In this document: piece after piece, positions 30,603-62,077 of the stretch | How the letters are laid out: every line of letters begins with the position of its first letter | Numbering within the stretch: position 1 is the stretch's first letter | Source: Branchiostoma floridae | Lineage: Eukaryota; Chordata; Leptocardii; Amphioxiformes; Branchiostomatidae | DNA length: 64,000 bases | Direction: 5' to 3' | Assembly (NCBI RefSeq): GCF_000003815.2 | Contig: NW_023365777.1 | Location: 478,855 to 542,854, forward strand | Made by a program: the position numbers and the translations under genes | Notes under the pieces: model-generated | What the model saw: the letters and a program-made list of their open reading frames with translations, nothing else | What the model was told of the DNA's origin: nothing | Database searches by the model: none

Positions 30603-30823
30603 TCATATAAACATTACATTGAAAAGTGATATGTCTGGCAAATGGACACAGTAAACACATACGTACAGATGATTGTGGGGTACGTGCACGTGCACGTGAA
30701 GACGTTAAGACGAAGGGAAGAAGCGCTCTGCCGAACAACCACTCGCTGAGGATGCTTACAGCTCTGTGGACCGAATACATACACAGCAGTTAAGTGAAAT
30801 GTTTTTCTGATAAACTTTTTTAG
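30603..30823 (+). promoter_or_regulatory. Candidate proximal promoter / 5' UTR of the first LRR receptor gene
   Basis: A TATA-like CATATAAA (30604) lies in a block (ttctagattcatataaacat) shared with 36821-36840 upstream of the paralogue. About 80 bp further is an E-box-like array CGTGCACGTGCACGTG (30683-30698), reduced to tacgtgcacatg in the paralogue. A T-rich run ending TTTTTTAG just before conserved atccaaacagacagaatg looks like a splice acceptor, suggesting a 5' UTR intron. All of it is present three times because of the tandem units. Confidence 0.35.
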
Positions 30824-30874
30824 ATCCAAACAGACAGAATGTAGCTGACAGGTGAAGCTAAGAAGAATGCAGTC

Positions 30875-33800
30875 ATGTTGTTCATGCTTCTCTTAGCGGC
30901 TACTTGTGCTGCTTCAGATGACCCGGCGAGCTTAACTCAGTGTATGACGGCTGCATGGCTACAATGTATGCCTGACAAGCCGGGAATGCCTCGTATTACT
31001 TTGTCTGACACACATGCATGTGTCATGTGTAATTCCCTAATCAAGGGTGCTGTCTCTGCAAATCCTTTCCCTTTAATTGCTGGGGCCAATAGTGTGGCAA
31101 TTAGAGGATACCCGTTCTATGTCTTGTCAAAAGAGAAACTCGCACCGCTCCAGCATTCCGTGATTTCCAATTTGGGTCTGATAGACGCAAAGATCACTGA
31201 TGTGGAGAACAACACCTTCGCTGGGTTTTTCATCCTCTTAAAACTGTCCCTAGATTCTAACAGGTTGACAATTGTCAAGAAGACCTGGTTCACTGGCTTG
31301 GAGAATCTCGTGACGCTGATTTTGTCCAACAACAAGATCACACAGATAGAGCCAGGGAGCTTTGTGAACCTGACATGCCTGAATGTCTTAGATCTAGAGA
31401 ACAACATGTTACAGGTTGTAGACCCTGCCTGGCTCTTTGGAGCGACATTTGTCACGATCATGGACCTGAGATTTAATGAAATCGGTAGCATTTCACCGGG
31501 GTCATTTCAACACCAAACGCTGACCCGGTTAGACCTGATGGGTAACGATCTGTCAAGTTTGGATGGAGAGGTGCTGTGGGGACAGTTTTGGCTATCAAGG
31601 CTCCATATCAGCAGTGGCATGTTGGAATCTGTCCATGATGGAAGACCACACGGAATGTTGTGGAGCCTACATCGGATGGCAAATAGTCTAAGAGGGTCAG
31701 GAACGATGGTTGTTGAGGTGCCCACGTTTCTCTTCTGTGCCAGGTACACAGCTAATGAACTCTCGTTTGGGTGGATGTTCGATTCAATGAGGAATGTACC
31801 TCGTAACATCGAGTTGGGACGTCCCAACCCTGGCATCTCATGCGGTGCTTTGGAGCGTTCTCTGAGCCTAATCTCCATCCAGGCTCCTGCAGTTGTCCTG
31901 GCTACTGACGGCTCTTTGGCAGACAAACTGGTCCCCAACACGCTTGAGCAGTGCAGGCAGGTTTGGGAGTACCAAGGGGGGTATTACTGTAACAGTGGGC
32001 CTGGTGGGAAGCCCAATCTTCCGACTGGTTTCCATGTCCACAGGGAATGGAAGCTTTGAAGGTGTTGGCATGACATTTGTCCAGACACACGACACAAACA
32101 CACTCACCACCACAGAGTCCGGGCGCAACCAAAAGCAAACTACCCATAGAAACGCCAGTACCCGTAATATAAAGAACATCACCTGCATTCTGCTCACCAA
32201 AGATGAACACACTGAGTTGTTTTTCACCGTGCCCCCAGTACAGTGTCAAACACACTCAACACTAACCACTTACAGCACAGACACTGACGACTCCAGCAGC
32301 CTATCATACTACTCTGACTACTCAGAAAAACACGACACATCTTCAGAACTAGAAGACAACACAACACCACAAGAGAGCAACATACCTGAACCAGAGGTAC
32401 CTCCAGAAAAAAATCGTCTTCACATAGTAGTTTTGGCAGTGGTCGGTCTAGCGGTGTCAGCATTTGTAGTGTTGGTATGGAAGGTGTGCTCATTAAGATC
32501 AAACGTTGAAGATGAGGGGGCCAGTGACGATACACACATCTGGACAATACCACCTGGCGTTACTTTCCCCGGCTTGCTGAGGTCAGCTTCCCTCCCTGCA
32601 CGTCCAATCAAGGTTGTGTCGGATGACGCAGTCTCCTGTAGGTCATTACCCGCTACCCTGGATTCCATTGAACCTGCTTACAGCGAGATCTCAGATGAAA
32701 CGGCAATTGCTCAGAGGCCCCTGCCTGGCCTTCCACATACATACTGGGAGATTTCAGATGACGCCATCTCCAGCATCGTGCGGTCTTCTTCTCTCCCTGC
32801 TGTAACATGCACAGACCGGGGCGCCCCAGATGATGCGGCATCTTGCAGGTCATTGCCAGCCGTCCATCAGTCCATCGAGCCCACCTACAGTCAGATCCCA
32901 GATAACATAGCCGCTGCACAGCGCCCTCTGCCTGCTCTCCCGCGAGCAAAGTGGGAGGTTCCAGATCATGGCGTCACCCCACAGCGCCCTCTGCCAGCCT
33001 CATCACATACTTACACTGAGATCCCAGATGAGAACGGCCTCATGCCTTTCTATGCTGATGCTGAGTTTTCGCTTCATGTCGTCAGAAACCGGAGACAGGA
33101 TCGAAGGGCAATCCGAGAAAACGGTGTCACGTATGGATCAGCTGAACAGGCAAAAACCCAGTGTGAGCCTTTGCCTGCCCCATCCCAAACCTACAGTGAG
33201 ATCCCAGATGAGAGCGGCCTCGTGCCTTTCTATGCTGATGCTGCAGACTTTTCGTTCCATGTCGTTGGCAACACCACTACTTCCAGTAGACGCCGATCTG
33301 GAAGATCCATTGCCACATATGGTTTGGCTGAACAGACCAAAGCCCAGCGTAACAACTTCTATAGAAAGGCCCCCGAGGTTGAAGGCATAAGAGCCCGTAG
33401 ACAGCTGAGGACAGCCTTGACTGCTGAGCAAGGTGTGAGGTCGTACATCAACTTCACAGACGCAATGCTGTCCAGAGGTCAAAATGTCACGCAAGGTCAT
33501 ATCGCCTTCCTCACACTGCCTGATACCCATTGGCCTTTGGAAATCTCAGAAAATGGAAGCCGTATTACACCACGGCGTGCGTCCCTCCCCCTTGTCACAC
33601 AGCCTAACACCTATTGGCCATGGCATATTACAGGGGAGATAACCCACATGGGTATGAAACCTCACGGCGCGTCCCTCTCTCATATTCCAGGCGAGGGAGC
33701 ACCTATCACACCACGGCGTGCGTCCCTCCCCCTTGTCACACAGCCTAACACCTACTGGCCATGGCACATTCCAGGGGAGGAAGCATCTAACACACCACGG

Positions 33801-34292
33801 CGTGCATCCCTCCCCCTTGTCACACCACCTAACACCTACTGGCCATGGCACATTCAAGGGGAGGGAGCCCCTAACACACCACGGCGTGCGTCCCTCCCCC
33901 TTGTCACACCACCTAACACCTACTGGCCATGGCACATTCAAGGGGAGGGAGCCCCTAACACACCACGGCGTGCGTCCCTCCCCCTTGTCACACCACCTAA
34001 CACCTACTGGCCATGGCACATTCAAGGGGAGGGAGCCCCTAACACACCACGGCGTGCGTCCCTCCCCCTTGTCACACCACCTAACACCTACTGGCCATGG
34101 CACATTCAAGGGGAGGGAGCCCCTAACACACCACGGCGTGCGCCCCTCCCCCTTGTCACACCACCTAACACCTACTGGCCATGGCACATTCAAGGGGAGG
34201 GAGCCCCTAACACACCACGGCGTGCGCCCCTCCCCCTTGTCACACCACCTAACACCTACTGGCCATGGGAGTCCAGGAAAGGGAACCTGTAA
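30875..34292 (+). pseudogene. LRR type I receptor, copy A, split by a 1-bp frameshift
   Basis: Frame 1 (30875-32059) gives a signal peptide (MLFMLLLAATCAASD), a Cys-containing N-terminal cap and about six LRRs with LxxLxLxxN-type blocks (LDSNRLTIV, LILSNNKITQI, LDLENNMLQVV, LDLMGNDLSSL), then a C-terminal cap. At 31976-31981 there is a run of six G where the intact paralogue has five. After it, frame 2 (open to 34292) carries the rest: stalk, membrane helix, and a signalling tail with at least eight 28-residue repeats. Apart from this one base, both halves are open over more than 1100 codons, so the break is very recent, polymorphic or an assembly error. No intron is visible in the coding part. 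Likely a surface recognition receptor (inference). Confidence 0.85.
33565..34270 (+). repeat. 84-bp coding minisatellite in LRR receptor A
   Basis: An exact 84-bp period over most of the tract (cattcaagg at 33851, 33935 and on), encoding 28-residue units RRASLPLVTPPNTYWPWHIQ followed by GEGAPNTP. Eight NTYWPW units are present. The middle copies are nearly identical, which suggests recent homogenisation. In the last two units the Ser of RRASLP is Pro (tcc to ccc). Because 84 is a multiple of three, other frames through it stay open as well. Confidence 0.95.
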
Positions 34293-35970: not shown

Positions 35971-37090
35971 GCGTGCCTGTCAGGATTCTAAAAATAACGC
36001 TAGAAGTTCAGACTTCATTTTAACAGAAGGCTACTGTAGGTGTTTGACCATGACAATATATCCAGGCAGCATTGTCCTACTTTCATGCCACACCTCGTTC
36101 AATTTAGATCTCTAGTTATGCTAGATTATTACATGTTTAACTTAAAAGGTACATGTGGATTTCTGTTAAAAACATACACTGTAATCTGTATAGCAATTAC
36201 AACGGATAAGATTAAAAGCAGATTTAGATCGGGTGTGAAACAATAAAAAATAAGTCATGACTGTTATGCCTCAAAATATCTGATAAAATGGCGTTATGTT
36301 GAGGGTAAACGAGGGGAATTCGTGTTGATGTCAAATCTTCAACTCAACTTTTGCCAGGTCAAACCCAGAAATGACAATAAAAAAAATCATGGAATGGACC
36401 TAAATATTCAAGTGGTGTGTGGTGATCTAGTGAATTGTAATCCAGTCGGGATCTGAAAATCCGGCCAACCCATAGGTACCCAGGTTGGACGACAGTCAAA
36501 CCTTAAAGACACAATGACACCTCTGGACAGAGATATAGCATGCATAGCGTAAAGATCAAAGGTAATTCTTAATGTTGACATGAAACAGAGACAAATAGTA
36601 ATGTTTGTCTTGAAAGATGGGTGTCAATTGGCATACTAAACATTACGCGGATAGACGTACATGTAAAGTAGCGTTACTCCCAAGGACTTTTACATAGATA
36701 CTACATACTACACAAAAACATATAATGATCCGGCAGTAATATTTGAAACAAACAGAAACTAAATACACAACTCATGTCATACCAATAGAAAAAAAATGTC
36801 TTGTCCTTTACTTCCCAGTGTTCTAGATTCATATAAACATTACATTAAAAATGTAATATGTCTGGCAAAGGGACACCGTACAGGCGTACGTACAGATGGA
36901 TGTGGGGTACGTGCACATGCAGACGTTAGGACGAAGGGAAGAAGCGCTTTAGCCGACGAACAACTCGTCGCGGATGCTTACAGCTCTGTGGACCGAAAAC
37001 ACAAACTGCAGCTAAGTGACAGTTTCTCTAGTATTTTAGATCCCAACGGACAGAATGTAGCTGACAGGTGATGCAACGAAGAGCGCAGCC
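35971..37090 (+). promoter_or_regulatory. Upstream region of LRR receptor B, homologous to the 3.2-kb unit
   Basis: From gcgtgcctgtcaggattcta (about 35971) to the ATG at 37091 the sequence follows the right third of the tandem unit with scattered changes. It includes the TATA-like CATATAAA (36830), a reduced E-box block (tacgtgcacatg) and the TTTTAG-atcc boundary before the gene. The start site was not determined. Confidence 0.45.
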
Positions 37091-40000
37091 ATGTTGTTTA
37101 TATGCATGCTTCTCTTGACAGCTGCGTGTGAAGCTTCAAATGGTCCAATCCTACCTCGGTGTAAGCCGGCTGCATGGCTAGAATGTGTACCTAACAAGCC
37201 GGGACTTCCTTTGACTTTGACGTCTGGCACACATGCATGTGTCATGTGTAAGTCCATAATCAAAGGTGCTGTCTCTGCAAATCCTTTCCCTTTAATTGCT
37301 GGGGCAAATAGTGTGGCAATTAGAGGATACCCGTTCTACGTCTTGTCGGAGAAGAAGCTCGCACCGCTCCAGCATTCTGTGATTCACACATTGGGTATGA
37401 TAGACGCAAAGATCACTGATGTGGAGAATAACACCTTCGCTGGGTTGTCCAACCTGCAAAAACTTTCCCTAGATTCTAACAGGTTGACAAATGTCAAGCC
37501 GACCTGGTTCATTGGCTTGAAGAAGCTATTGGTGCTGATTTTGTCCAACAATAAAATCACGTATGTAGAGCCAGGGAGCTTTGTGCACCTAGCAGGCCTA
37601 AATGTATTGGATCTAGAAAATAACCTGTTACGTTTTGTAGACCCTGTCTGGCTCTTTGGACTAAAAGGTAGGATGATGTTGAGTCTGAGGTTGAATACAA
37701 TCACCAGTATTTCCCCAGGGTCATTCCGACACCTAACACTGACCTGGTTAGACCTGATAGGTAATGATCTGTCAAGTTTGGACGGTGATGTGTTGTGGGG
37801 ACAGCCTGCGCTATCAAGGCTCCATATCAGCAGTGGCATGTTGTCATCTGCCTATGGTATAAAGCCATGTGAAATGAAGTGGAGCCTACGTCGGATGGCA
37901 AATTATATTAGAGAGTCAGCAACAATGGTTGTTGAGGTGCCAAAGTTGATATTCTGTGCCAGGTACACAGCTTATGAACTCTTGCTTGGGTGGATGTTCG
38001 ATTCAATGAGGAATGTGCCTCGTAACATCGAGTTGGGACGCGTCAACCCTGGCAGATCATGCGGTGCTTTGGATCGTTCTCTGAGTACGATCTCCATCCA
38101 GACACCTGCAGTTGTCCTGGCTACTGACGGCTCTTTGGCAGACAAACTGGTCCCCAACACGCTTGAGCAGTGCAGGCAGGTTTGGGAGTACCATGGGGGT
38201 GTTACTGTAACAGTGGGCCTGGTGGGAAGTCCAATCTTCCGGCTGGTTTCCATGGCCACAGGGAATACAAGCTTTGAAGGGGTTGGCATGACATTTGTCC
38301 AGACACAAGACACAAACACACTCACCACCACAGAGTCCGGGCGCAACCAAAAGCAAACTACCCGTAATATAAAGAAGATCACCTGCATTCTGCTCACCAA
38401 AGGTGAACACACTGAGTTGCTTTTTACCGTGCCCCCAGTACAGTGTCAGACACACACAACAACAGCCACTCACAGCACAAACACTGACAACTCCACCAAC
38501 ATATCACACTACTCAGAATACTCAGAAAAACACGACACATCTTCAGAACTAGAAGACAACATAACACCACAAGAGATTAACACACCTGACCCAGAGGTAC
38601 CTCCAGAAACAAATCGTATTCACATAGAGATAGTGGTTGCTGTTTTTTCAGTGGTCGGTGTAGCGGTGTTAGCGTTTGTAGTGTTGGTATGGAAGGTGTG
38701 CTCATCAAGATCAAACGTAGAAGATGAGGGGGCCAGTGACGATACACACATCTGGACAATACCACCTGGCGTTACTTTCCCCGGCTTGCTGAGGTCAGCT
38801 TCCCTCCCTGCACGTCCAATCAAGGTTGTATCGGATGACGCGGTCTCATGTAGGTCATTACCCGCTACCCTGCATTCCATTGAACCTGCTTACAGCGAGA
38901 TCTCAGATGAAACGGCAATTGCTCAGAGGCCCCTGCCTGGCCTCCCACATACATACTGGGAGATTCCAGATGACGCCATCTCCAGCATCGTGCGGTCTTC
39001 TTCTCTCCCTGCTGTAACATGGACAGACCGGGGTGTCCCAGATGATGCGGCATCCTGTAGGTCATTGCCAGCCGCCCTTCAGTCCATCGAGCCCACCTAC
39101 AGTGAGATCCCAGATCACATAGCCGCTGCACATCGCCCCCTGCCTGCTCTCCCGCGCTCAAAGTGGAAAGCTCCACATCATGACGTGACTCTACATCACC
39201 TTCTGCCAGCCTCATCACATACTTACGGTGAGATCCCAGATGAGAGCGGCCTCATGCCTTTCTATGCTGATGCTGCAGACTTTTCATTCCATGTCGTCAG
39301 AAACACCACTTCTTCCAGTAGACACCGATCAGGAAGATCCATTGCCACATATGGATCGGCTGAACAGACCAAAGCCCAGCATAACAACTTCTATAGAAAG
39401 GCAACCGAGGTCGAAGGCATAAGAGCCCGTAGACAGCTGAGGACAGCCTTTGTATCCCAGACTGCTCATCAAGGCCTGAGAACGTACATCAACTTCAAAG
39501 AAACAATGCTGTCCAGAGGTCAAAATGTCACGCAAGGTCATATCGCCTTCCTCACACTGCCTGATGCCCACTTGCCTTTGGAAATCTCAGAAAATGGAAC
39601 CCATATCTTGCCACGTCGTGCGTCGCTCCCCCTTGTCACACTGCCCAACACCTATTGGCCATGGGACATTACAGGGGAGATATCTCGTATGAGTATGACA
39701 CCACGAGGCGCGTCCCTCCCCCTTGTCACACTACCCAACACCTACTGGCCATGGCATATTCCAAGCGAGGGAGCACATAATACACCACGGCGTGCGTGCC
39801 TCCCCCTTGTCACACTACCCAACACGTACTGGCCATGGCATATTCGACGTGAGGGAGCCCCTAACACACCACGGCGTGCGTCCCTCCCCCTTGTCACAAT
39901 GCCTAACACCTATTGGCCATGGCACATTCAAGGGGAGGGAGTCCGTAGCTCAATGCGTCGCGCGTCCCTCCCTCTTGTCACACCACCTAACACCTACTGG

Positions 40001-40096
40001 CCATGGGAGATGCCAGGGCGTCCCAACCCCTTGTCACACTGTCCAACACCTACTGACCATTGGAGTCCAGGAAAGGGAACCCGTAATACACCTTAA
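37091..40096 (+). CDS. LRR type I receptor, copy B (1001 aa, intact, single coding exon)
   Basis: Signal peptide (MLFICMLLLTAACEAS), an N-terminal Cys region (CKPAAWLECV, HACVMCKS), about six LRRs (LSLDSNRLTNV, LILSNNKITYV, LDLENNLLRFV, LDLIGNDLSSL) and a Cys-containing C-terminal cap. A Thr/Ser-rich stalk leads to a membrane helix at about 512-537 (IEIVVAVFSVVGVAVLAFVV) with KVCSSRS as stop-transfer. The cytoplasmic tail of about 460 residues has RSASLP and RSSSLP, RPLPGLP and RPLPALP (class I SH3-ligand-like), YSEIPD/YWEIPD/YGEIPD motifs, and five NTYWPW repeat units. There is no TIR or kinase domain. The tail reads as a docking platform for SH2, SH3 and 14-3-3-type partners (inference). 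The coding part is intronless, unlike the LRR gene at 62483. It could be an innate immune or adhesion receptor; the ligand is unknown. Confidence 0.88.
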   Translation: MLFICMLLLTAACEASNGPILPRCKPAAWLECVPNKPGLPLTLTSGTHACVMCKSIIKGAVSANPFPLIAGANSVAIRGYPFYVLSEKKLAPLQHSVIHTLGMIDAKITDVENNTFAGLSNLQKLSLDSNRLTNVKPTWFIGLKKLLVLILSNNKITYVEPGSFVHLAGLNVLDLENNLLRFVDPVWLFGLKGRMMLSLRLNTITSISPGSFRHLTLTWLDLIGNDLSSLDGDVLWGQPALSRLHISSGMLSSAYGIKPCEMKWSLRRMANYIRESATMVVEVPKLIFCARYTAYELLLGWMFDSMRNVPRNIELGRVNPGRSCGALDRSLSTISIQTPAVVLATDGSLADKLVPNTLEQCRQVWEYHGGVTVTVGLVGSPIFRLVSMATGNTSFEGVGMTFVQTQDTNTLTTTESGRNQKQTTRNIKKITCILLTKGEHTELLFTVPPVQCQTHTTTATHSTNTDNSTNISHYSEYSEKHDTSSELEDNITPQEINTPDPEVPPETNRIHIEIVVAVFSVVGVAVLAFVVLVWKVCSSRSNVEDEGASDDTHIWTIPPGVTFPGLLRSASLPARPIKVVSDDAVSCRSLPATLHSIEPAYSEISDETAIAQRPLPGLPHTYWEIPDDAISSIVRSSSLPAVTWTDRGVPDDAASCRSLPAALQSIEPTYSEIPDHIAAAHRPLPALPRSKWKAPHHDVTLHHLLPASSHTYGEIPDESGLMPFYADAADFSFHVVRNTTSSSRHRSGRSIATYGSAEQTKAQHNNFYRKATEVEGIRARRQLRTAFVSQTAHQGLRTYINFKETMLSRGQNVTQGHIAFLTLPDAHLPLEISENGTHILPRRASLPLVTLPNTYWPWDITGEISRMSMTPRGASLPLVTLPNTYWPWHIPSEGAHNTPRRACLPLVTLPNTYWPWHIRREGAPNTPRRASLPLVTMPNTYWPWHIQGEGVRSSMRRASLPLVTPPNTYWPWEMPGRPNPLSHCPTPTDHWSPGKGTRNTP
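39597..40020 (+). repeat. Coding minisatellite in LRR receptor B
   Basis: Five diverged copies of the RRASLPLVTLPNTYWPW unit (about residues 836-975). Unit lengths and sequences vary more than in copy A. After the last unit the reading frame differs from that used in copy A. Confidence 0.9.
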
Positions 40097-46329: not shown

Positions 46330-47079
46330 TTAAAAACAACATGAAGTCTGGATGACGTCAGGGTCCAGGTATGAGAAAGGCGGGGACCTTTCCTTCTTCT
46401 TGTTGCTTGCTGAAATCGTGGCCATATCTTCCCGAAAACTATAGTAAAAAAGTTACATAATGAAATAACATAAACAAAAAAAAAAACATTTAAAAAAACC
46501 AAATAACATTCATGGGCACCTCACAATATGTACCGTTGCTATATTATGAAAAATAATATATTATACTACGAGTATATGGAACACATAGGAAAGTGCATAT
46601 AGACAAAAGGGTGAACTAAATTCCGTATGATTTACTCTTAACTACGTATACATTTTGAGATAATTGTATGAGATTTACGTAGCAGTGAATCTGTATAACG
46701 ATGTATATTTCATTGAACTAACCTAAACAATAAATCCAATTCTCCAACTCGCAGAGTATGCCACTGCACCACTTTCACATAACATACTGCTATTTTCACA
46801 TCACCGCGGACCCACACCAAGACAATATCTCGTTTCCATAAAGGTAATAAATGAACGTCTTGCAATAGCTCATTTCTATAAACTTTAAAGGAATAAGCGA
46901 ATGTTTTACCGTCTGACCGCGGCCTTCCCCACTGGTGAGAATAGGAAGTTGTTTTTGAAGTCGCCCAGTGTGTCCCTCAAGTTTCCCTTACAACTCAGCA
47001 GCCTTGTCATAGACATCATCCGCAGGGTCTCCTGCTTGTTTGGTACGTACTTCAGCACATCATCTATAGTTAGACGGGT
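46330..47079 (-). CDS. Last two exons of the lipoxygenase-like gene
   Basis: 47079-46910 encodes TRLTIDDVLKYVPNKQETL to PVGKAAVRR; the donor CG followed by GTAAAA makes a phase 2 junction. 46438-46330 (acceptor ttttttactatag) encodes FREDMATISASNKKKE to YLDPDVIQTSCCF, then TAA. The last 13 residues align without gaps to the family's YLxPxxIPNSxxI end, but the terminal Ile, whose carboxylate binds iron, is Phe. Reading straight through the donor would give a stop at VRR, losing the conserved end. Confidence 0.85.
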
Positions 47080-50000
47080 CTGGACGGAGAATCCACAAAA
47101 AGAGATGAGTCCTTAATGTCAAAATGCACGTTTTCTTGTCTAAATAGAATATTTGACACCCAGGAGGCCATGTTCATGACATCCACGCAAGTCAACTTTT
47201 GGCCGTCTAAAAACACGTTTTCAACCATGCTTTATATCGTACAAAGCAACTGCAAAATGAGCAAATTTAAGCTGGAGATTGCAAAAATGATATGAGGCCA
47301 ATTCCAAGGCCAAAGAAGATGTGAAAGACCAAAAATGAAGTATCTATTGTACTTATACGATATACATAAAATAGACCAACAACAATACCTCCCCTTAAAT
47401 TAGTAGCCTCTTCCATTGACCCCATGACCCGGAGAGTCTTGCCTGATTAACGACTAGTTCTACCAAATCTGACCTGTACTTCCTAGTTCCTACTGATCCT
47501 GCAAGTCTGATATTTGCGGTAATCTTCTGTCTCTGACAGTGCTTTTAAAACGGAAACACACCACCCCCTTAAAAAAACTAACGTAATACATGAAGTTAAA
47601 AGCAACGCCCGACAAAGTGTTAGCGTAGCCAAAACGATGTGATTTGTTAGATACCTTGTCTGTGATTGGATTGCCGACGAGGTTGAGAGGGTAGTTGGGT
47701 GGGAAGGCACACTGGCTGTACATCTGTAGGCTGACAGCACGCGACACCGTGCTGGTAAAGATGACTGACGTCACCGTTGCAATGACGTCATCGACAGTCT
47801 TGAACTCACCTTCACCGGGAACCCCCTGTGGCACAGAGGCAACGTTTCTGTCATTAGCGTCATTTTCATTTCTGTATTTGAGCTTCACGGAAAGATTGGA
47901 AGTAGGGCATTCCTATACACGTTACGTCACATAATTGCCTCTAGCGAAATAATTGCAAGGACACTAATTTGGGGTTGGCAGTATACTTAAGGAGAGGGCG
48001 GGATTTTTTATGCAGATTTTGTAAGGAAGGGTCACGCTATGGGTCACGTTATATAACCCTAACCCTAACTCAACCTTAATCCTATTACTTAACCCTAACC
48101 TCAAACCCTGCCCTAGCCCCAACCATGACTATGATTTAGTAGCTTTTCTAGCAATTATTTGGCAACGCAATGATATCTGACGCGACACTGGTACCTCTAG
48201 CGGAGTACAGGTGATTATAGAGTATGCAAGTAAAATCATACAACGAATAAGAAATGATAAAAAAAGAACAAATATCAACTATCGTAATAATTAAAAAGCA
48301 AACCTTCCCAACCTGCCAGTCTCCGGCTACACCATAACATGTGCATCCTGCTAATCTACAACGCTGAAATAACTACAGACAAACACCTCGACAAATAATA
48401 CACCCATTTTCATGGCAATGGTCTGCTTGATCGGTCATCATGTACCTGAATGCCTGCACCACCCTCGGCAGCTGCTTTAGTCATCTCCTCTCTCCAGGCC
48501 CTTAGCTCCTGGTCCCCTGAAACTTTATCCGTGTCATCTGAATTTGGTTAAAAAGACGGAAGAAAAAAGATATGGAATAACGTATAGACCAAACGTAAAT
48601 CATTCATATAGTAAAACGAATGATTTGCATATCACTTATGAGGCAATTGTCATCGTCAATGCAGTCCCAAATGTGAGTTTACACTCCCATTGTTCCCTTT
48701 CGATAAATGCACTTAGTTGTGTATAATAAACTTTGCTGTTCAGCGGCGTAAAAGCTTAATTTTACCGTAGTGGGCCTTCAGCACGCTCCTGGTGTATTTC
48801 TCGATGGCGTACCAAATGGGGAGGGCGTCGTCTCGGTAGTGGTAATTCGGAAGTGCAGTTGTGTCATCGACCTAGTAAAAATGTGTAATACACAATAGCT
48901 ATTGTTACATTTGTATGAAATGCACATGCTTTAAACCTGCTGTAAAATGTGTTATGTCTCTTAAATATACTGTATGAACACGTTAAAAATGAAAAAAAAA
49001 ACGTTTCAGTATACACTGGGTGACATTGTCAAAGCACATAACCAAATAATTCATTCAAGTACTTTAGATTTGGACTGCATTGTAAGTACTATCTATTTTC
49101 ATTTACTGTCTACATGCCTTACATTTAGGACCGCAATTGTTAGCAGCGACACCTATTTGCAGTTCGTAACAGAACCAGCCACAATTGCATTCACTGAGGA
49201 TGGTGACAGACGGTCTTGAAATAAGTATTTTGTCGAACAAAGAATCAAGCCCTGTCCTTGGTACTGAATTGGCCTCACCTCTCGATTCTCCAAATCACGA
49301 GGCAAGTTCCCTTCCACGTTCATTCTCCAATGGCTTTTCCACCTACAAAAAAGATTATCACAAATTATAAATTTACACTGTGATTTATATAGAGCAAACA
49401 ACGGGTAGTACAGCACGGTAGTGAAAGACAGTTTGGTCCATCCTATAGCATTTAGATGTGTCCATATTGAGTTATACTAATATAGTATCACCAGTACAAT
49501 GCCTTGATAAAATGACTCACCCTCTTTGCAGGATGTCGATAAATCCATCCCTGCCGATCCTAGTGGTTTCGTCCATCCACTGCCCCGGATCGAGCATACG
49601 AAGCGTTTCTCTGCAAATATATGTTGCAAATACTGATAACTCTTTTTTTTAAATGACCATCTTAACGTAAAGATGACATGGCCAATGTAACCTCCATCTG
49701 ATGATTTTTCTCATGGAAACCTCATTAAGGATTCTTGTCTACATGGTAACCACCTGTCCACATAGACTAACTTCATTGGTCTCTTGAGTGGTCTTCTAGG
49801 GCAGGTTATGGCTGTAGGTCCATGACTTGAAGGTATCGCTACCATGTACCGACAATGTAGGGAATAGGGAAGAAACGTGTTAAAGATAGATCTAAATTTG
49901 ATAATAGCATAGCCTTATATGTTTAAAATTGTGTAAATGACAGAATTGTAGTGTAGTGTAAATGAAAGTGTAGCATAAAATATGTTGCTTTGTTTACACC

Positions 50001-53000
50001 ACTGACACTGTTCAGGGCCGCTACAGGACTGTTCAGGACACACGTGCGTATATATTCAAGTCCGTATGAAGTCCGTACGGACGTCTTAGCCTCTACTAGG
50101 CTCCACACGTTGCTGGAAAAAGAATAGAAATTGGATAAATATGATACATAATATGTCAGACGAGTTAGCTGGCTCACAAACCGTACTCCTCGGTCAGCTA
50201 CTCCTTTGGCATATTATGCATCTATATTTGCCCAATGTGTACTACTATTACAGTGACCTGTGAAGCCTGGTAGAGGCTAAGAATTCCATACGGACGTCAT
50301 GTAGATTTGACTATATACGCAGACCCATTTACGTAAACGTGAAACAACTGTATTTTAATAGCCCATATGAGCTACGTTCGAATAAAGATCATTATTCTTG
50401 AAATAGTTGAACTGTAATTTCCAACACAAAAATTGGACTCACCAATTTTCGTCCGCATAGCATCAGTATTTGTCAAGGATTGAACAATCCACTGCTGTCG
50501 TGACGTCACGTTATGCAGATAGAACACGTGACTCAGTGAGCAGTGGATTACAGGTTGCAGGAGTGAGTGCATGGGCGAGTCCAATATTTGTGTTGGAAAT
50601 TACAGTTCCACTATTTCAAGAATGACTTCTACCAACACAGATTAACTTTTAAGTAGAGATCATCATTATTAGGAAATGTTGCAAGAACAAAATTTAAATG
50701 TTTACTGACGGACCTGTTTGCCGGGATGAGCTGGTTGAAGTGCGGCGCCAGGAGACGGGAGACGGGGTGAGACACGGACAGATTCCGGTGGGCACACAGG
50801 GCGACAGACTCCATGGCCAGACGAGAGAACCCTGCAACATATGCGTAACGTTACGTTGTTAAAATATTTATGGAGGTTATATTTCACTAGCGTTTGTGTG
50901 TGTGTGTGTGTGTGTGTCTATTATTGTGTGTGTGTGAATGTGACAAGATAACTCAGGAACGGCTAAGTGGATTAATTTCATAATCAGAGTGTTAGTAGGG
51001 CGTGATAAAAGCTGGAAAGGATTAGATTTTAGCCCCCAAGCGTCTTCCCTTGGTACTGCATCGTAGCTTCAGGTTTTGCTATCTCGTGTTCTGAACAAGC
51101 TATGGTCACGATTTTTAGGTGTTGGGTAGCTCTTGTGCTCAGAAAGACGTCACAGAAGTTTTGGCTCCCTAGTTTCATTTCTTTTCTCATCAACATGATT
51201 TATGTTAACATTTTTAGTCAAGTTTCATAGGAAACTAGACGGCTCAATCCTTAAGACATTTCTTTCTTTCTGACTTTAAAAGCAACCTGTCATCAAATAA
51301 CAAAACCCTGCAGCATGTCCAAGACAAAATACACAAACGCTAGACGTTTTTTGCAGTATCAAGGTCGGTCGCCAGGAGGCCCATATTCGATCTACACCGT
51401 CGTAGTCTATCATGAAGTCCCTTCATCCATTCAGCACCGTCTCACAACTTTGCCGTCGTCCACTCGCCAACCAGGATTGGTGCAAAATTGGGCTAAGATT
51501 CACCCTAGACTAACTCCATAACGCTCCCCTGATTGTATCCAAGTAGAATATGATCTTTCCAACTTTGATTTTTCAAACTTCGTAGCCGCCGACAATTTTA
51601 AAGACTAGCAGTAGGTAATCTCGCCGAACAGGGTCAAGAGGTCATGGCCGGCTACATGTGACAGGGTCTTAACAGTAAATGCGGTATCTCACTGCACTTG
51701 CGTCATCCTTGCGTCACTACGGGACTCGAAATATACTCAACGAATTTTAGAGATAAATAAGGAATTTTCTTACACTGTGTGTATTTTGTCGTCTTCTGAA
51801 GTCATACTTTTACATATTATGCAATATCTAAATTATGAAAAAAAATCAGAGAAAATAACAAAACAGTGAACGCAGTGAACGAACCCCGCGGTGACGCTAT
51901 CTTGACGCAAATGCAGTGAGATACTACCTTTAAGGAAGGCGGCACCTACCGAAGTTTGCGCACGCCAGGTGCCAAGAAGCCTCGGCCAGGTTGTACCACA
52001 TCTTCACCAGCAGCCAGGTGTACGGTGGGTCCGTCGGCAGGAATACCTGGACAGCCTGGACAGGTAAAGGGGTGAGATGAAACTAAAACATCACGATTAC
52101 ATTACCAAAAACATACCGCTTACTAGCAGGTAAGCAGGAAACAGGAACTTCTCTAAAAGCGATACTAAGTACCAACAATCTCGTTAACAATCATCCTGAA
52201 AATCTTAGTAATTGCGTTTAATCGACAAAATCAATGATATAACATTCGTTCGTCCGTTGGCACATACGTTAGCAGATTTCCTTGCTGTTTCAGTGTCAGG
52301 GTATTAACATTACAGGAGTGGTTTGCTAGCCATTCTGTTTTAACGTGCTAGAGGTACCTCCTAGAATATGAAACTCCCATTTTACGTTCCTTCCAAAAAA
52401 GGCATACAGCCCTATAATCAAGTGGTGTCTTATCAGGATTCCAGGTTTTCCCAGTCACCAATTAATTGGAATCAGCAGCGTAACTGTAAGGCTGCTACCA
52501 GTTGCACTACAAGGAAATCCCCATTCAGCAGTATGTATATAATATATATATATATATATCTTTGACTTTCTATTGGAGAAAAGATGTATTGTACATGTAC
52601 AGTCGGTAAATATAACGTATCCATTAGGCATATACACTTCTTACCTTGAGCTCATCAGGGAACAACTGGATGGCTATCGGCATGAGATCTCCTTCGTCAT
52701 CCACGAAGAACAAAGCCATTGGTGCACATAGCTGGAGAAAATACATGCAAAGTATTCATAGGTATAGCTAGGATCATATTTCAAAACCGGGGCCCGAACG
52801 GGCTGTTTGGGGAAATGAAACGAAAATTAAAAATATATACCTAGAAATAAACACAAATCATGCCCACGACTCCCATGTTTACGTTTTGCGTATTTTGGTG
52901 CCTTTTTGTGTGGTATTTATCGTTCCCGAAAGCTGTCCGGTCGCGGCCCGGTTTTAAATGTGACCTATATTATACTATATGTTACGTGAGCTCACCACCG

Positions 53001-56000
53001 CACAACTAGGAAGCAACTTAAACCAAATACATGATGGGCATCTTCACATGGTCTAGCCAGACAAACTACTGTTCTGTCTATTCATACTAAAAGTTAGTAA
53101 AACATAGTCATATGTATGGTGACCAGCCCCTCCAGTTTTGTCCTGCCACTTGCTACATTATGTAATGTAACACCAAAGGTTACTGCTGCAACTTCAGTGA
53201 CAATGATGACAGCCGCCAAGTCCAAGTCATTGACTTGATTTGTTCGAATAAGAATAAGAAAAGGTAGCCGAAGAGAAAGAAACGGAACAAAATCAAATCA
53301 AGTGTTTCTATTCGGTTAAGGTTGACATATGATAATACATGTACATGTAAAAAGAGCTGCATTTGTTGTTACGTTTTCCTAAGAATTTGGTTGTCGTTCT
53401 GTATCCATATTTTATACAAAATGTACTGACGCAGGTTGGGGCTCCACACGTTCAATCACTTACCTTATACAGGCATGAGAAACAAACTTATCATAAAAAT
53501 GTATTTTTCAATATTCGTAATATTTGTAAAGGAAAACAGGGTCCCTACCACGTTGCCGTCAATGCATTTGACCCCCTTTAGCATGGTGAGGTCAGTCAGA
53601 TACAGCCGCTTGTCTTGTATGGCCTGTTTCAGGGACACGTCCTTTAACACGTCCTTCACCATCTCTTCTGTCACGTTGAGACTTGAAATTAAAAGATCGT
53701 GATAACAGAAAGTCAAAATGAAGGTGCGACTTGCAATACGGTAGAATCTATTAACATGTAAGGCTTTTGAATTACAGCAACAAAAGGCCATACATAACCA
53801 GGAAAAACACAACAAAAACGATACCAACACTCCGTTAATCAGTAGCCTATTAGACTCTTTACGTCGATGAAGGTTAGACATCCAGGTAATAAGATATGCC
53901 AAAAAGTAATTACTCAAGCAACTGGATATGATTTTGGAAACGGTCAGACGTTTCGCATAGTATACACTATCCTTCGTCAGTGACACTGACCGTTTCCAAA
54001 TCATATCTAGTTGCTTGAATAACTGCTTTTTGGCATATCTATCTCCAGTGTCACTGACGAAGGATAGTGCTAGTGGATACTATCCGAAACGTCTGACCGT
54101 TTCCAAAGTCATATCCAGTTGCTTGAGTAACTACTTTTTGGCATATTAGACTCTTTCATGACCTGGACTGCCATGACTAAAGAACGATTTGTTCTACCAC
54201 TTCTGACCTAAGCACTTCGGCAAAAGCAACAATATTGGTTATTCGAAGAGGCTATTTGAGAAAGACGAACTACCGTACTACACTACTTGTACGTGTATAA
54301 TCAACCACTGGTTTGACATAAATTTGTCCCAGGAAGCCACGTAAACTATTTACAACTAATTCGGGAGTATAGAAGTGTCATCGGATACCTTGCTGGGATT
54401 TCCTTGCACAGTTTGATGAGGTTAGGAACCAGACCCTGAAGCCTCTGCTGTCCGAACATCTTATCGAACCACCAGTTCTCTATTCCCTGTGGTAAAAGGT
54501 TAAATAAAAAACATGGTACATCCCGCATCACTCAATGTACCAGCCCTCCCGCGGGTCGGAGCGCCTGACGGCCGAAGTCCGGCGGGCGATCAGACCCGCG
54601 GGAGGACTGGGACCGAGGCTGTGATAGGGGCTATTGACAGGGATCTACGACACTTTCCGTCACAAGACAGTTAACGTTTATACAACACATCCAAGGCACT
54701 CAGGAGAATGATGTTGATTTGTTGTCGTATACCTGCCGTGTGGCAAATATGACTGGGCTCCAGCAAAAGCAAGTACGAAATCAACAGGCAGGATGTACAT
54801 TGTATTTATACGTGCGTCAAGTATACATCAAGTATGCACCAAGTATGCATAAAGTATGCGTCAAGTATGCATTAAGTATGCGTCAAGTATGCATCAAGTC
54901 TGCATCATAACAGATATACACATGGAAAGTGTATAACACAAATGGAATTTCTATTACAATATTTGATTAACAACTTCCAATCTCTTTTTCTATGAAAAAA
55001 TTGCAGCTACCAAGAAGATTATACATCTAAAGTTATTCAACTACAGCTTCCTTGCTACTACAAACGGCGTTGAAATCTTTGCAATTGTACAAAAAGTTGA
55101 CAAACACCTGAGGGACTTTAAAGCCAAGCTCGTACAAGTCTGCAAAGTGGCTGAGTTGCTTGACCTGTCCCCACTGTGTCAGGCGGAGGAGAAGCTCATC
55201 GCTCTTGCATCGGTCTCGAATGTTGAAGTATGTTTTCTACAGAGATTGGAAAAAATGAGAACACGTATAAAGAAATACAATTTTATCACTCTACGTAACA
55301 AGCTATAGTAACAGTCTCAATGCCACCTGTTAGACTTGAATGGGGCTAAACCAGTCGACGGTTTAGTTCTTGACATTTTTGCAAGCGCCTTATACCCACG
55401 CCGATTATAAGCTGACATTTTTCTTGGCTGCGCCGACAATACCTTGTATTCCTGTGCCCACATTGCCTGTCTTGGTGATCCGGCAACCTGTAGAAAAGGG
55501 TAAAAACACAAAACATCAAAACCGGATATTCCGCTGAACTTTTGTTTTACCTCCCCGACAGAGTACCCAATGTTTTTCACAAGAGCCGCAGGGGGAGGGG
55601 CGATCCCTACCCACTCACCAAATATAAGGATCCACCACAACTTCTCGAGTTATTCTGTCCACTTCCCCATGGGGTACAATTTGAAACTGTTTAAGTCAAG
55701 TGTTAACAGACATCTTTCTTCACAATACAGTATTGTAACCCCAAACGCTTGAGTGGCTCCATGAGCCTTGTTTTGCGGTGAGTCCTAAGTAAACAACAAC
55801 AAAAAACTGACAGAAAGATAAACGGCACAAAAACATGACCTTCTTGGCAAGGGTAATAAGCTATGACCTGTACGGGACACCCGTCAGCCAATGATGTCAT
55901 TTGGAAGTCCTTCTTCTTGTCGTTGAGCTCCCGTCGTCGCTGTCCCGGGTGGGGGTCGTTCTGCGGTAAGCAGCAGTTGAAAGGCGGGATGAAGAGTCTT

Positions 56001-58502
56001 TTCCCCGGTCCGGGCTTCAACCACCTGGCGACGGAAGAAAAACAAGACTATCATCTAGCATGACAGTTCATCCTCGTCTTGGTAAGTGGCATTATGAAGA
56101 AACTTATCACTTTGAACCTTTGTCTAGTGTTGAAAAGTTCATTCTTCTTATGCGTTTTGATCAAACGACATTACAAACACATCTCAAGCTACATATTTAA
56201 CATTACTGAGGAAGGAGAAAAAGCCGAACAAATGTATTAGACTAGTCTTAGAATCCATGTTTTAGATTAGACTTAGAAACTATGTTTACTGTATTACCAC
56301 CCTTTGTATCTATATGCCTGTACTTAGCCCGATAGGGCACGAATGTCTAATAAAGGCTATTACATTTTTTTCTATTTTGCTTTTGGACAGACGAGGACAA
56401 TGTGGCACTGCACTCAAGTTAGTTACTTATATTAACAGTGACACATACAAAATACAGACAGAAGGTAAAGGAAGACTTTTGTATGACCTCACCGACCGAA
56501 GTCAGGTACCCATTTTTATACATGTGTGGAGTCAGAAAGTTCGTGTTAGGTGCCTTTCCCAAGCGCTCGACGTCGGCGGCATGGCTAGTATCGAACTCAG
56601 GACCACTAGATTCCGAGCCGAACGCTCTACCAGGTACGCCACATACAACTAAATTGTACCTAACTAATGCTGGAAAAAAATAGTTTTTAGAATGTGATGC
56701 ACGAACCTCTGGACTGGAAAGGTGTACAGCTCCACATCGGAAAGCGAAGAAATCTTGACGGTATCGACGAAAGTGTCGCCTTTCCCCTCGCTCCAGATCT
56801 CCAGTTCTTTAACCTATATATGGACGTGAATTGTCTGTAAGTATCAATGAGTGAGTGTTCGCCTTACATTCGGTAGGTCGTGAGTTCGATTCCAGGCCGA
56901 GTCACATCAAACCAGTTTTTACAAAATGGTACCATGGTGAGCACTGTTTTCCCTGCTTAGCATTTATGGGAAAGAGTATGGTAGTTGCAAAAACTATATT
57001 ATCAGTGGACTAGTCCCCTACTATCTATACGTAGCGACTTAATTAAGTTGTGTATACGCAGCCCAATGTTCTTTAATTGGGAGCTGGTGTGGGGAGTGGG
57101 GAGACTTTAAGTTTATTAACTAACTGCATGAAGGACATAGATGGCTTTTCTGTACACTTGTTAATTATGTGGAGCATCATGCTACTGTATTTATTTGGAA
57201 GAGAGAACTTTCTTTTGCGACGATTGTAACAGGTGCAGTGTATGGCAACTTATAGTGTCTGTACTTGCAGTTTTGTTTCAAACCGCTAGGCGATGTGCAT
57301 GTAACGACTAGTGGTCTTCACGTAATGGATATGAACACGCCTTATCCTCCTGAATTTTGGTAAATTTGGATATGCTAGTGAATGGGCATAATGTGTGTAT
57401 AATCCTTGACATAATGTGTGTATATTCCTTGACATAATGTGTGTATATTCCTTGACATAATGTGTGTATATTCCTTGACATAATGTGTGTATATTCCTTG
57501 ACATAATGTGTGTATATTCCTTGACATAATGTGTGTATATTCCTTGACTTTTAATTTTCGTTTCCACAAACATCCCGGCCGGGCTATGGTTGGGAAAAGG
57601 GATCTTAGCATTCCCCAAGCATCCCGACCGGACCCCATTTCAGAAAAGGGACCTAAGCCTAACACGTACCTTTTCACGCAGTTGAACGTTGCTCGGCGTG
57701 ACGCTGCTTTTCGATGCGGAAAGTTTGATGGTTTCCGTCCGATTACCGGCGATGTCCTCCAAAACGATGAAAATGGGGCTGGAACGTCATAGAAGATTGA
57801 TTTCCATGTTCGTGCCCCAAAATTTAGATTGCAAGAGGTAGAGACATTGGTAACATATACAAGTAACGGGAACAATCGTTGGGATGTAACTAGAGACTAA
57901 TCGAATCTATCTTAGAACAGCGACATCTATGCTGCAGTGCACTATCTCTATCTATTTATCAAACTCAGTGTAGTCCAGTATTGTAGCAACTGAAATTGTA
58001 GTGATATAATGTATATGTGTAGTATGAGACTGTGCCTTTTGTTGTCTATACATTGCCATACATTGTCACTGATACAATTGTTGTGCAATAAACCATCTAC
58101 CTATATATTTATCTAATAGTATGTATTATTACTCAAGTGGCAAGTTCACTCCAAACGATTCTGCTTTGTCTATCCTTTTTGACACCCTTTAACACTACGG
58201 CTTTCTCTATTTTGTGAACCAAATGTGTATACATGTATATGTGCATGATTGAAAGACCCTTATTGTAAATTCATACCTACGGCTACGACATAGGGCTAGG
58301 TACAGACATTTATCTTATGAATTATAACAAACATATGACAAAAGAAAGTAAACACGAGAAGACAAGGGTGTTGTAAAAAGCTACTGGTGATCCTTATACA
58401 AGGTTTGTCTAACATAAAAAGTGTAAACGACTCTTACCCGCCCCTTTCCTTCTCCGTTATGATTTGGCAGGTAGGGCCTGTTGAAGACGAGTTGTTGCCC
58501 AT
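46330..58502 (-). CDS. Lipoxygenase-family protein lacking the iron site (18 exons, 651 aa)
   Basis: Minus-strand exons in transcript order: 58502-58438, 57778-57670, 56813-56707, 56024-55868, 55487-55443, 55236-55108, 54486-54389, 53681-53549, 52731-52645, 52055-51950, 50831-50714, 49610-49521, 49342-49279, 48871-48766, 48537-48446, 47825-47655, 47079-46910 and 46438-46330. All junction phases agree, and the sum is 1956 bp. The layout is that of animal lipoxygenases: an N-terminal PLAT domain, then the helical catalytic domain, of near-usual length (about 650-680 aa). Family landmarks are LCAPMALFFV, WLLVKMW, HYRDDALPIW and FSYLDPD. Lipoxygenases add oxygen to polyunsaturated fatty acids with a non-haem iron. 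Compared with human ALOX5, the first ligand His is kept (His339) but the second is Asn344, the third Arg531, the fourth Leu535 (or Ser534) and the C-terminal Ile is Phe651. Dioxygenase activity is therefore not expected; a regulatory or lipid-binding role is possible (inference). Confidence 0.85.
47655..48871 (-). CDS. Lipoxygenase-like exons 14-16 with substituted third and fourth iron ligands
   Basis: 48871-48766 encodes VDDTTALPNYHYRDDALPIW (the YYRDDxLxIW block). 48537-48446 encodes DQELRAWREEMTKAAEGG. 47825-47655 encodes VIFTSTVSRAVSLQMYSQC, in the position of the family's VIFTxxxxHxxxNFxQxxxC helix. His is Arg531 and the Asn, four residues on, is Leu535 (Ser534 if one gap is allowed). 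Splice sites are canonical and phases are consistent. Confidence 0.85.
48053..48120. repeat. Degenerate telomere-like CCCTAA tract
   Basis: taaccctaaccctaactcaa then spaced cttaaccctaacctcaaacc: several exact and inexact copies of CCCTAA, the C-rich strand of the TTAGGG telomere repeat, within an intron of the lipoxygenase-like gene. Confidence 0.75.
49279..50831 (-). CDS. Lipoxygenase-like exons 11-13
   Basis: 50831-50714 encodes GFSRLAMESVALCAHRNLSV to SHPVSRLLAPHFNQLIPANR (the family HPxxxLLxPH block is clear). 49610-49521 encodes ETLRMLDPGQWMDETTRIGR. 49342-49279 encodes WKSHWRMNVEGNLPRDLENR. In ALOX5 the segment after the first ligand pair has a third conserved His (RTH); here the aligned position is Arg. 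Confidence 0.8.
50036..50333. mobile_element. Palindromic MITE, diverged copy in the lipoxygenase-like intron
   Basis: cacacgtgcgtatatattca, agtccgtatgaagtccgtac at the left and ccatacggacgtcatg ... ctatatacgcagaccca at the right match the ends and middle (tggctcacaaaccgtactcc) of the element in the 3.2-kb units. Confidence 0.7.
50389..50626. mobile_element. MITE with about 48-bp terminal inverted repeats
   Basis: Left attcttgaaatagttgaact, gtaatttccaacacaaaaat, tggactc; right gagtccaatatttgtgttgg, aaattacagttccactattt, caagaat. Length about 238 bp, in an intron. Confidence 0.8.
50895..50935. repeat. GT microsatellite
   Basis: Two GT runs separated by ctattatt, in an intron of the lipoxygenase-like gene. 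Confidence 0.9.
51676..51940. mobile_element. MITE with GGTATCTCACTGCA-type ends
   Basis: Left aatgcggtatctcactgcac, ttgcgtcatccttgcgtcac; right gtgacgctatcttgacgcaa, atgcagtgagatactacctt. Terminal repeats of about 45 bp over about 265 bp. It ends only about 10 bp from the exon at 51950. Related ends occur at about 4608 and 44870. Confidence 0.8.
51950..52731 (-). CDS. Lipoxygenase-like exons 9-10 with the first iron-ligand helix
   Basis: 52731-52645 encodes LCAPMALFFVDDEGDLMPIA, the family's CAPIxLFxxxxxxxLxPIAIQL strand. 52055-51950 encodes VFLPTDPPYTWLLVKMWYN, then LAEASWHLACANF. This aligns without gaps to the WLLAKxWVxxxDxxxHxxxTH helix: His339 is present, and five residues on the second ligand His is Asn344 (codon AAC). 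Confidence 0.88.
52540..52560. repeat. AT microsatellite
   Basis: A short (AT)n run in the intron between exons 8 and 9 of the lipoxygenase-like gene. Confidence 0.85.
52772..52965 (+). mobile_element. MITE of the GGCCCGG-terminal family
   Basis: Left aaaaccggggcccgaacggg, ctgtttgggg; right ctgtccggtcgcggcccggt, tttaaatgtgacc. Related copies at 2573-2750 (reverse) and 60369-60563. Confidence 0.65.
53549..55487 (-). CDS. Lipoxygenase-like exons 5-8
   Basis: 55487-55443 encodes VAGSPRQAMWAQEYK. 55236-55108 encodes KTYFNIRDRCKSDELLLRL on to ELGFKVPQ. 54486-54389 encodes WWFDKMFGQQRLQGLVPNLI (the family's F.xQRLxGxNPxxI block). 53681-53549 encodes LNVTEEMVKDVLKDVSLKQA to RLYLTDLTMLKGVKCI (the VTxxMVxxxL and RLFxxDYxxLxG blocks). 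Phases 0/0, 0/0, 0/2 and 2/0 fit their neighbours. Confidence 0.82.
53860..54150. repeat. Multi-copy inverted-repeat element (CAAGCAACTGGATATGA family)
   Basis: ttactcaagcaactggatat, then gattttggaaacggtcagac and gtttcg, are followed by inverted and again direct copies (gaccgtttccaaatcatatc, tagttgcttgaataact). At least three arms are seen, separated by cttcgtcagtgacactg. Fragments of the same family lie at about 908-1000 and 17915-17965. A spurious 179-codon minus-strand open frame runs through it. Confidence 0.75.
54815..54907. repeat. 11-bp minisatellite
   Basis: About eight imperfect copies of catcaagtatg in an intron. Confidence 0.85.
55868..58502 (-). CDS. Lipoxygenase-like exons 1-4: N-terminal PLAT-type domain
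   Basis: 58502-58438 encodes MGNNSSSTGPTCQIITEKER. 57778-57670 encodes PIFIVLEDIAGNRTETIKLS. 56813-56707 encodes VKELEIWSEGKGDTFVDTVK to DVELYTFPVQ. 56024-55868 encodes RWLKPGPGKRLFIPPFN to ELNDKKKDFQMTSLADG. The VxxLxIWxEGxGD...DxVxI...YxFPxxRWL pattern is the beta-sandwich PLAT/LH2 domain that brings lipoxygenases to membranes. The first Met is followed by GNNSS, a possible N-myristoylation context. The first exon is the least certain part; an alternative upstream exon is listed at 60254. Confidence 0.7.
56440..56652 (-). mobile_element. tRNA-derived SINE (minus strand)
   Basis: On the minus strand a tRNA-like head has an A-box-like TGGCGTACCTGGTAGAGCG and a B-box-like GGTCCTGAGTTCGATACTAG, followed by a body with AAAAATGGGTACCTGACTTC and GGTCGGTGAGGT. 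Typical SINE structure, in an intron. Not a functional tRNA: it lacks a clean cloverleaf and continues into the body. Confidence 0.6.
56840..57080 (+). mobile_element. SINE-like element with tRNA-type B box (plus strand)
   Basis: gtgttcgccttacattcggt followed by aggtcgtgagttcgattcca resembles the second half of a tRNA gene including the B box, and is followed by a non-tRNA body. 3' limit approximate. Opposite orientation to the SINE at 56440. Confidence 0.45.
57387..57547. repeat. 23-bp minisatellite, seven copies
   Basis: The unit cataatgtgtgtatattcct followed by tga starts at 57387, 57410, 57433, 57456, 57479, 57502 and 57525. Nearly perfect copies, in an intron of the lipoxygenase-like gene. 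No spacers, so not a CRISPR array. Confidence 0.95.
57990..58115 (+). repeat. CR1-like 3' tail fragment
   Basis: ttgccatacattgtcactga followed by tacaattgttgtgcaataaa. The inverse of this wording occurs at about 20774-20820, and a related tail closes the retrotransposon at 16.12 kb. 5'-truncated. Confidence 0.45.
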
Positions 58503-61158: not shown

Positions 61159-62077
61159 ACGAGGGGCGTTCAAAAAGTAATGCCACAGGATTTGTCGCAG
61201 AATAATTTTTTTCATCAAATGAGTTGAAATTTGGCACAAAGGTAAAGGCATCTAGAGATTTAAATGTCTCAGTTAGTTGTTCAGGTTTTTATGAGTGACT
61301 GAGTTGAGTTCAAGATGACCGCACCCTTGGAAGCTTGTCAGGAGAGCAATTCCTCTAAAGCTGACCCTTTTAAAACTATTGTAGGAAGCTAACGTTTCAT
61401 CTGTATGATAAAAAATGTCTCAATAGACTACATGCCAAATTTCATGTCTGAACTCTCAATGGTTCATCTTTTACAGCCACTAAAATGGAGCGAGTTGCTA
61501 TATTACATGCAATTTCATTAATAGCCAAATACGTAAACTGTTGACTTAAGATTTTCTGACTGCTTTTCTGCTGGCCAAAAGATACGATTTGGCACAATTA
61601 CTAACTGTTTCAAGACCAAGAAGTGTGCTATAGGTTTGATACCTCTTAGTTAATAAAAAAAGTCGGTTACGGAAACTTTAAGCAGCCGACCCTTGATCTA
61701 CGACCCCTCATACCTCACATCATCCCAGGATCGAAAATATAATAAATGATTGGATCTAAAAGACGAAAAATAGGAATGTGACTTATAGAGAAATGCAACT
61801 TGATACTTGTGTAGTTTCAGTTTCGTACAATAGTTACTAGTAAGTCATGGAGATTATCAATTGCACGTTAATTTACCCTCCAATTTCTTCCGACGGGATA
61901 ACAAGGGTGTGGTCATCTTGAACTCAACTCAGTCACTCATAAAAACCTGAACAACAAATTGAGATATCTCAATCTCAAGAAGACATATACCTTTACCTTT
62001 GTGCCAAATTTCAACTCATTCGATGAAAAATTAGCCTGCTATAAAACCGGTGGCATTACTTTTTGAACGCCCCTCGT
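61159..62077. mobile_element. Mariner-like non-autonomous element with long terminal inverted repeats
   Basis: Ends ACGAGGGGCGTTCAAAAAGT / ACTTTTTGAACGCCCCTCGT, with inverted similarity extending about 170 bp (gttgaaatttggcacaaagg, ttcaggtttttatgagtgac). GGCGTTCAAAAAGTAATG-type ends are known from mariner elements. Length 919 bp with no transposase frame. A TA target duplication was not seen at these limits. Confidence 0.75.

Follow-up and report, generated by a model that had tools for sequence, protein, structure and literature searches.

A full-length lipoxygenase homologue lacking conserved iron ligands in Branchiostoma floridae, a probable pseudoenzyme

The lipoxygenase gene and its surroundings

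The window analysed here is a stretch of 64,000 nucleotides of the Branchiostoma floridae genome (assembly GCF_000003815.2, contig NW_023365777.1, positions 478,855 to 542,854 of the forward strand), and positions given below without a contig prefix are counted from its first letter. It contains on the minus strand a gene of 18 exons, modelled by hand, for a homologue of lipoxygenases, which are fat-oxidising enzymes; the gene runs from 58502 to 46330 and comprises 651 codons and a stop. Exon 1 (58438..58502) carries the start codon and an N-terminus of the N-myristoylation type, MGNNSSST, and is followed by exons 2 (57670..57778) and 3 (56707..56813, with FPVQR at its end), which cover a worn PLAT region, and by exons 4 (55868..56024), 5 (55443..55487) and 6 (55108..55236). 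The well conserved catalytic-type domain begins, by the hand model and Pfam, in exon 7 (54389..54486) and continues through exons 8 (53549..53681) and 9 (52645..52731) to exon 10 (51950..52055), which aligns with the first cluster of iron ligands, and exon 11 (50714..50831), where alignment places Arg349 in the position of the His of the THL motif. Exons 12 (49521..49610), 13 (49279..49342), 14 (48766..48871) and 15 (48446..48537) lead to exon 16 (47655..47825), which aligns with the second ligand cluster, exon 17 (46910..47079) and exon 18 (46330..46438), which contains the stop codon and ends the protein in QTSCCF, as against PNAISI in the aligned paralogs. In this model all 17 introns are GT-AG with consistent phases, and there is no stop or frameshift. 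A spliced protein-to-genome aligner returned identical exons, a check that tests the splice choices and not the protein itself, as its query was the hand-built protein. The gene model of the first-pass annotation (18 exons with their coordinates, 651 amino acids, one frame) was reproduced exactly by hand and by the spliced aligner.

Several repeats lie within or near the gene. Intron 2 contains a 23-base minisatellite of seven nearly identical copies (57387-57548), open in all three minus-strand frames, and inverted-repeat elements resembling small DNA transposons are present in two introns (53894-54146 and 50394-50623) and upstream of the start (61159-62077). Elsewhere in the window, a 3.23-kb unit is repeated in three head-to-tail copies with 99.9% identity (21119-30824), reflecting either a very recent event or an effect of assembly. 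Two related stretches (30845-34292 and 37061-40096), 87% alike in DNA and leucine-rich-repeat-like by eye, differ in that one has two overlapping frames of 404 and 806 amino acids and the other a single frame of 1011; near their 3' ends stands an 84-base (28-codon) minisatellite in 7.0 and 4.8 copies. An open frame of 1138 amino acids (12549-15965), which has an assembly gap where it begins, resembles by eye a non-LTR retrotransposon's endonuclease and reverse transcriptase.

Family membership and the N-terminus

The 651-residue protein matches Pfam profile PF00305 with 151.6 bits (E=4.2e-44; curated cut-off 23.6) over profile positions 176-651 of 673. Its best solved relative by sequence is human ALOX15B (E=7.6e-60), with 32% identity through the catalytic-type domain almost to the C-terminus, and coral 8R-LOX shares 29% identity over this stretch. 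Compared with these two lipoxygenases, the window protein lacks the second and third His ligands (His2 and His3), the Asn, the C-terminal Ile and a recognised PLAT domain. No match to PLAT (PF01477) was listed at E<=10, with the HMMER filters dropping most matches above about 0.1, whereas all three paralog N-termini tested match it with E values of 2e-18 to 1e-17; in the window protein, loop-adjoining stretches of this region are missing. This comparison gives no support to PLAT as the route of the membrane recruitment that had initially been suggested, and the Met-Gly N-terminus appears to be a better candidate for a membrane anchor.

The usual rule for N-myristoylation asks for Gly after the initiator Met and for allowed residues at positions 3, 6 and 7, and the window start, MGNNSSS, reads accordingly at each of these positions. 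Met-Gly starts are also present in three of the five modelled paralogs (MGANCSSE, MGAQCTGG and MGIVTSKP), these being the only three paralog starts established, and all four look like N-myristoylation signals. They are located at 58502 (window, MGNNSSST), C10:13076497 (MGANCSSE), C4:24323178 (MGAQCTGG) and near 13106607 on C10 (MGIVTSKPKKPK); two have a Cys at position 5 and one continues with a basic stretch.

Loss of the iron ligands

Ligand positions were read from a MAFFT alignment of the window protein with 15 homologues, namely 13 from the same genome, human ALOX15B and coral 8R-LOX. Catalytic lipoxygenases have His-x4-His in the first cluster, of which the window protein keeps His339 (codon at 51969..51971, minus strand, as are those that follow) and has Asn344 (51954..51956) at the second site, which is His in all 12 other paralogs read. 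The second cluster, His-x3-Asn with His or Ser in place of Asn in some enzymes, is replaced by Arg531 (47739..47741), an adjoining deletion of one Ala codon, and Ser534 (47730..47732). The chain ends in Phe651 (46333..46335) with its own carboxylate, where catalytic lipoxygenases end in Ile or a similar residue.

These changes differ in weight. Ser occupies the fourth site in human ALOX15B too, and lipoxygenases use a main-chain carboxylate as their fifth ligand, which a terminal Phe could still offer; hence the losses of His2 and His3 carry the most weight, and together they would remove the standard iron site. The first-pass annotation had counted four of five ligands as lost, which holds to the letter when the gene is compared with its paralogs and overstates the chemistry, since Ser534 and Phe651 are soft losses; its central point, that the standard iron site is gone, is borne out by Asn344 and by Arg531 with the adjoining deletion. 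For the fourth site it had offered Leu535 or Ser534, and alignment with closer paralogs selects Ser534. The surroundings of the site are altered as well: the His of the THL motif has become Arg349, a conserved Asp has become Ser539, and the tryptophan-AK motif has Val327 in place of its Ala, giving VK as compared to AK in all 15 other aligned sequences. In the available text of an ALOX survey this motif, printed W-XXX-AK, serves as a filter for authentic ALOX sequences (PMC10531496).

That the protein is still a catalyst, either holding iron or another metal in a different geometry through His339, Asn344, Ser534 and the C-terminal carboxylate or carrying out another lipid reaction, draws on the survival of His339 and the terminal carboxylate and on the Ser shared with ALOX15B. 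Against these stand the Arg at the His3 site with the neighbouring deletion and the loss of the THL His and the conserved Asp, all of which make a metal site unlikely, and we regard continued catalysis as very improbable.

An error of assembly or gene model, in which the ligand exons were misassembled or wrongly chosen, could be suspected from the smaller contig and from two gap runs in the window, though both gaps are outside the gene. It is given as little credence as residual catalysis, because the changes fall in two exons about 4 kb apart and in the last exon, within well aligned open stretches, and because no alternative ligand exon was found in the window. Exons that restore the ligands had been named from the outset as one finding that would overturn the reading: a tblastn search of the window with paralog B at E<=10 matched 14 of 18 exons and two unrelated weak spots, and gave no second copy of a ligand-bearing exon. 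An alignment artefact was also considered and discarded, as the hand model, a spliced paralog alignment and MAFFT agree on the changed positions.

Relatives in the same genome

The genome searched comprises 513 Mb in 431 contigs, with the window on C219 (644 kb). It contains at least 12 further paralogs of the gene's own group, and all 12 keep both His residues of cluster 1 and the His and Asn of cluster 2, as read from two ligand-bearing exons each, which for several were paired into one gene by proximity. Thus the window gene alone of 13 has lost the metal site. The C-terminus is PNAISI in all six of the 12 for which it was read. In an unrooted protein tree built on 446 columns, a split with support 100 separates the window gene and five own-group paralogs from the rest; the other seven stand outside the tree and were assigned by similarity only. 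Paralog B (C10:13076497-13067823) is 44% identical overall to the window protein (280/631), likewise has a Met-Gly start, and has exon sizes closely similar to window exons 7 to 17, yet like the other 11 paralogs it retains the four side-chain ligands. No second near-identical copy or allele of the window gene was found among the matches listed (68 of 125 candidates scored).

Two features of the paralogs may be recorded here. At C10:13076630, 133 bases upstream of the start of paralog B, its first coding stretch recurs almost unchanged (MGAACSIENSTVDS), which may reflect duplication of the first exon or an alternative version of it. Two paralogs on C19 (470468-484051 and 741999-758353) are 85% identical in the catalytic-type domain, and the former has one apparent frameshift in its model, either real or an exon-boundary error.

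A separate clade in the same genome consists of five lipoxygenase homologues, each without one to three side-chain ligands. The gene at C7:556670-549681 has His1 changed to Gln and a C-terminus of SR, and with a single side chain lost its product may still bind iron. That at C7:577272-592122 has His2 changed to Asn and His3 to Tyr, ending in RV; C11:13800346-13806515 has His1 to Gln, His3 to Arg and Asn to Ala, ending in TP; C12:12361050-12357023 has His2 to Tyr, His3 to Asn and Asn to Thr, its C-terminus not being found; and C12:6562270-6567743 (near 6.565 Mb), aligned by eye, has His2 to Leu, His3 to Arg and Asn to Thr. Four of these genes group with support 99 in the unrooted protein tree, adjoining coral 8R-LOX (support 82), and the fifth, known from exon fragments only, is for that reason not in the tree. 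The four modelled genes have no stop or frameshift, all their introns are GT-AG, and their GC at third codon positions (GC3) is 0.67 to 0.86 as compared to an intron GC of 0.39 to 0.46. A third lipoxygenase group of nine loci has the standard ligands wherever these were read (8 of 8 for cluster 1, 5 of 5 for cluster 2). Overall, at least 6 of about 27 lipoxygenase homologues are ligand-deficient, these counts being lower bounds. The single-gene picture given at first pass was therefore incomplete; of greater import is that two separate lipoxygenase groups of this genome include genes that, judging from these sequences, have lost ligands and kept their frame.

Apparent maintenance of the reading frame

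Pairwise dN/dS proved unusable, as synonymous sites are saturated. With a branch codon model on 444 codons from five genes of the own group, the hypothesis of omega=1 could be rejected for the window branch (LRT 17.0, p=4e-5), whose omega did not differ from the rest (p=0.35); the saturation renders the omega values rough, and the test spans the whole window branch, part of which pre-dates the ligand loss. Base composition has not decayed: the window gene has a GC3 of 0.663 and a fourfold-site GC of 0.589 against an intron GC of 0.388, values which may be set beside those of paralog B (GC3 0.69, introns 0.38) and of paralogs A, K and G (GC3 0.56 to 0.62). Under a model in which all change is neutral after the first ligand loss, the joint probability of the further losses and of no stop reaches at best 1.1e-3 if two of the three remaining side-chain ligands are considered, 9.6e-5 once the C-terminal Ile is added and 1.4e-6 for five of six positions, all picked after the fact; taking the splice sites and the start and stop codons into account lowers it further. 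These lines are indirect, and together they agree with the original view that this is not an obvious decayed pseudogene; the frame looks maintained.

One rival is a young pseudogene, that is, a gene that recently became dispensable and has been drifting for too little time to acquire stops. The terminal branch of the window gene in the protein tree is long (0.76, with 0.26 for B, 0.27 for A and 0.60 for G), and of 47 non-ligand residues shared by nine or more of 11 active-type sequences, which we call family-invariant, it keeps 33 and has changed 14, while genes of the second clade keep 36 to 42. When active-type sequences were left out in turn, five retained 0.94 to 0.96 and three (G and two O sequences) 0.70 to 0.73, the latter partly depressed by missing or misaligned stretches and providing no clean yardstick. 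Across the family, the losses showed no significant concentration at the metal site (Fisher p=0.24 for the window gene); within the own group p was 0.04, and for the four modelled second-clade genes it was 0.05, 0.16, 0.37 and 0.12. The long branch, the retention of 33 of 47, a ligand loss not clearly concentrated and the unrecognised, worn PLAT region make a young pseudogene a live rival, to which the location on a 644-kb contig, not one of the large ones, and the lack of a near-identical copy among the matches listed can be added. Its difficulties are the joint neutral probability of 1e-3 to 1e-6 at best, the undecayed GC3, the rejection of omega=1 and a start, a stop and 17 introns that are all intact, and on balance we hold recent decay to be unlikely, although distinctly more plausible than residual catalysis or an assembly error.

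A probable lipoxygenase pseudoenzyme

Pseudoenzymes are well known in other protein families. A pseudoenzyme is an enzyme homologue without the conserved residues that define active members, as worded in excerpts of PMC7586955, and by its predicted residues the window protein falls under this definition. The best explanation, to which we assign a probability of roughly two in three, is that the gene encodes a lipoxygenase pseudoenzyme, with a full-length fold that would not hold iron in the standard manner and that has been kept for a role other than dioxygenation. This reading, already proposed at first pass, is favoured by the intact frame, the lost iron site and the lines that argue against neutral decay; it stands here without PLAT recruitment and with a softened count of lost ligands. 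The presence of five more such genes in the genome suggests that the window protein may be reused for a non-catalytic job. Mechanistically, it would adopt a lipoxygenase fold without metal, be tethered to membranes by an N-terminal acyl group rather than by the worn PLAT region, and work through what it binds, be this lipid, an active lipoxygenase from among its paralogs or some other partner, in the role of a decoy or regulator.

Inactive variants of human 5-LO provide a precedent for such catalysis-independent action. According to available portions of these studies, the inactive delta13 form of 5-LO inhibits 5-LO product synthesis, with less leukotriene made by the active enzyme (PMC4501781), kynureninase expression is restored by a 5-LO mutant without catalytic activity, and beta-catenin is bound by an inactive 5-LO form (PMC11065698). 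These are lipoxygenase proteins acting without catalysis, as is proposed for the window protein; however, they derive from an active gene by splicing or mutation, while the window gene is a separate gene with its metal site lost.

Setting and significance

In an open-access library, with most subscription papers outside its scope, neither a lipoxygenase pseudoenzyme described as a separate gene nor a description of these amphioxus genes was found. According to the available text of the ALOX survey, sequences whose iron ligand clusters are incomplete were left out, so that such genes can be missed; one sequence excluded there is a predicted ALOX homologue of the seahorse Hippocampus comes, likewise without complete ligand clusters (PMC10531496), and by an inferred match of accessions this is probably XP_019726606.1. 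In a bacterial study, both ligand clusters are called essential for true ALOX sequences in the portion available (PMC6612559). Lancelets also have an epoxyalcohol synthase of the CYP74 clan, which acts downstream of lipoxygenases, as stated in excerpts of PMC10813956.

Taken more broadly, lipoxygenase pseudoenzymes may have evolved at least twice in amphioxus, once as an old clade of five genes and once as a lone member of a 13-gene group with several acylation-type starts, and would constitute lineage-specific, membrane-tethered, iron-free folds, which would tune oxylipin signalling by binding lipids or active lipoxygenases; this wider proposal is tentative, and we lean somewhat against it in its entirety. 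Should these proteins be expressed and retained, they would represent the fold of a drug target in a natural form devoid of iron, and could be used to examine roles of human 5-LO that are reported to be independent of catalysis.
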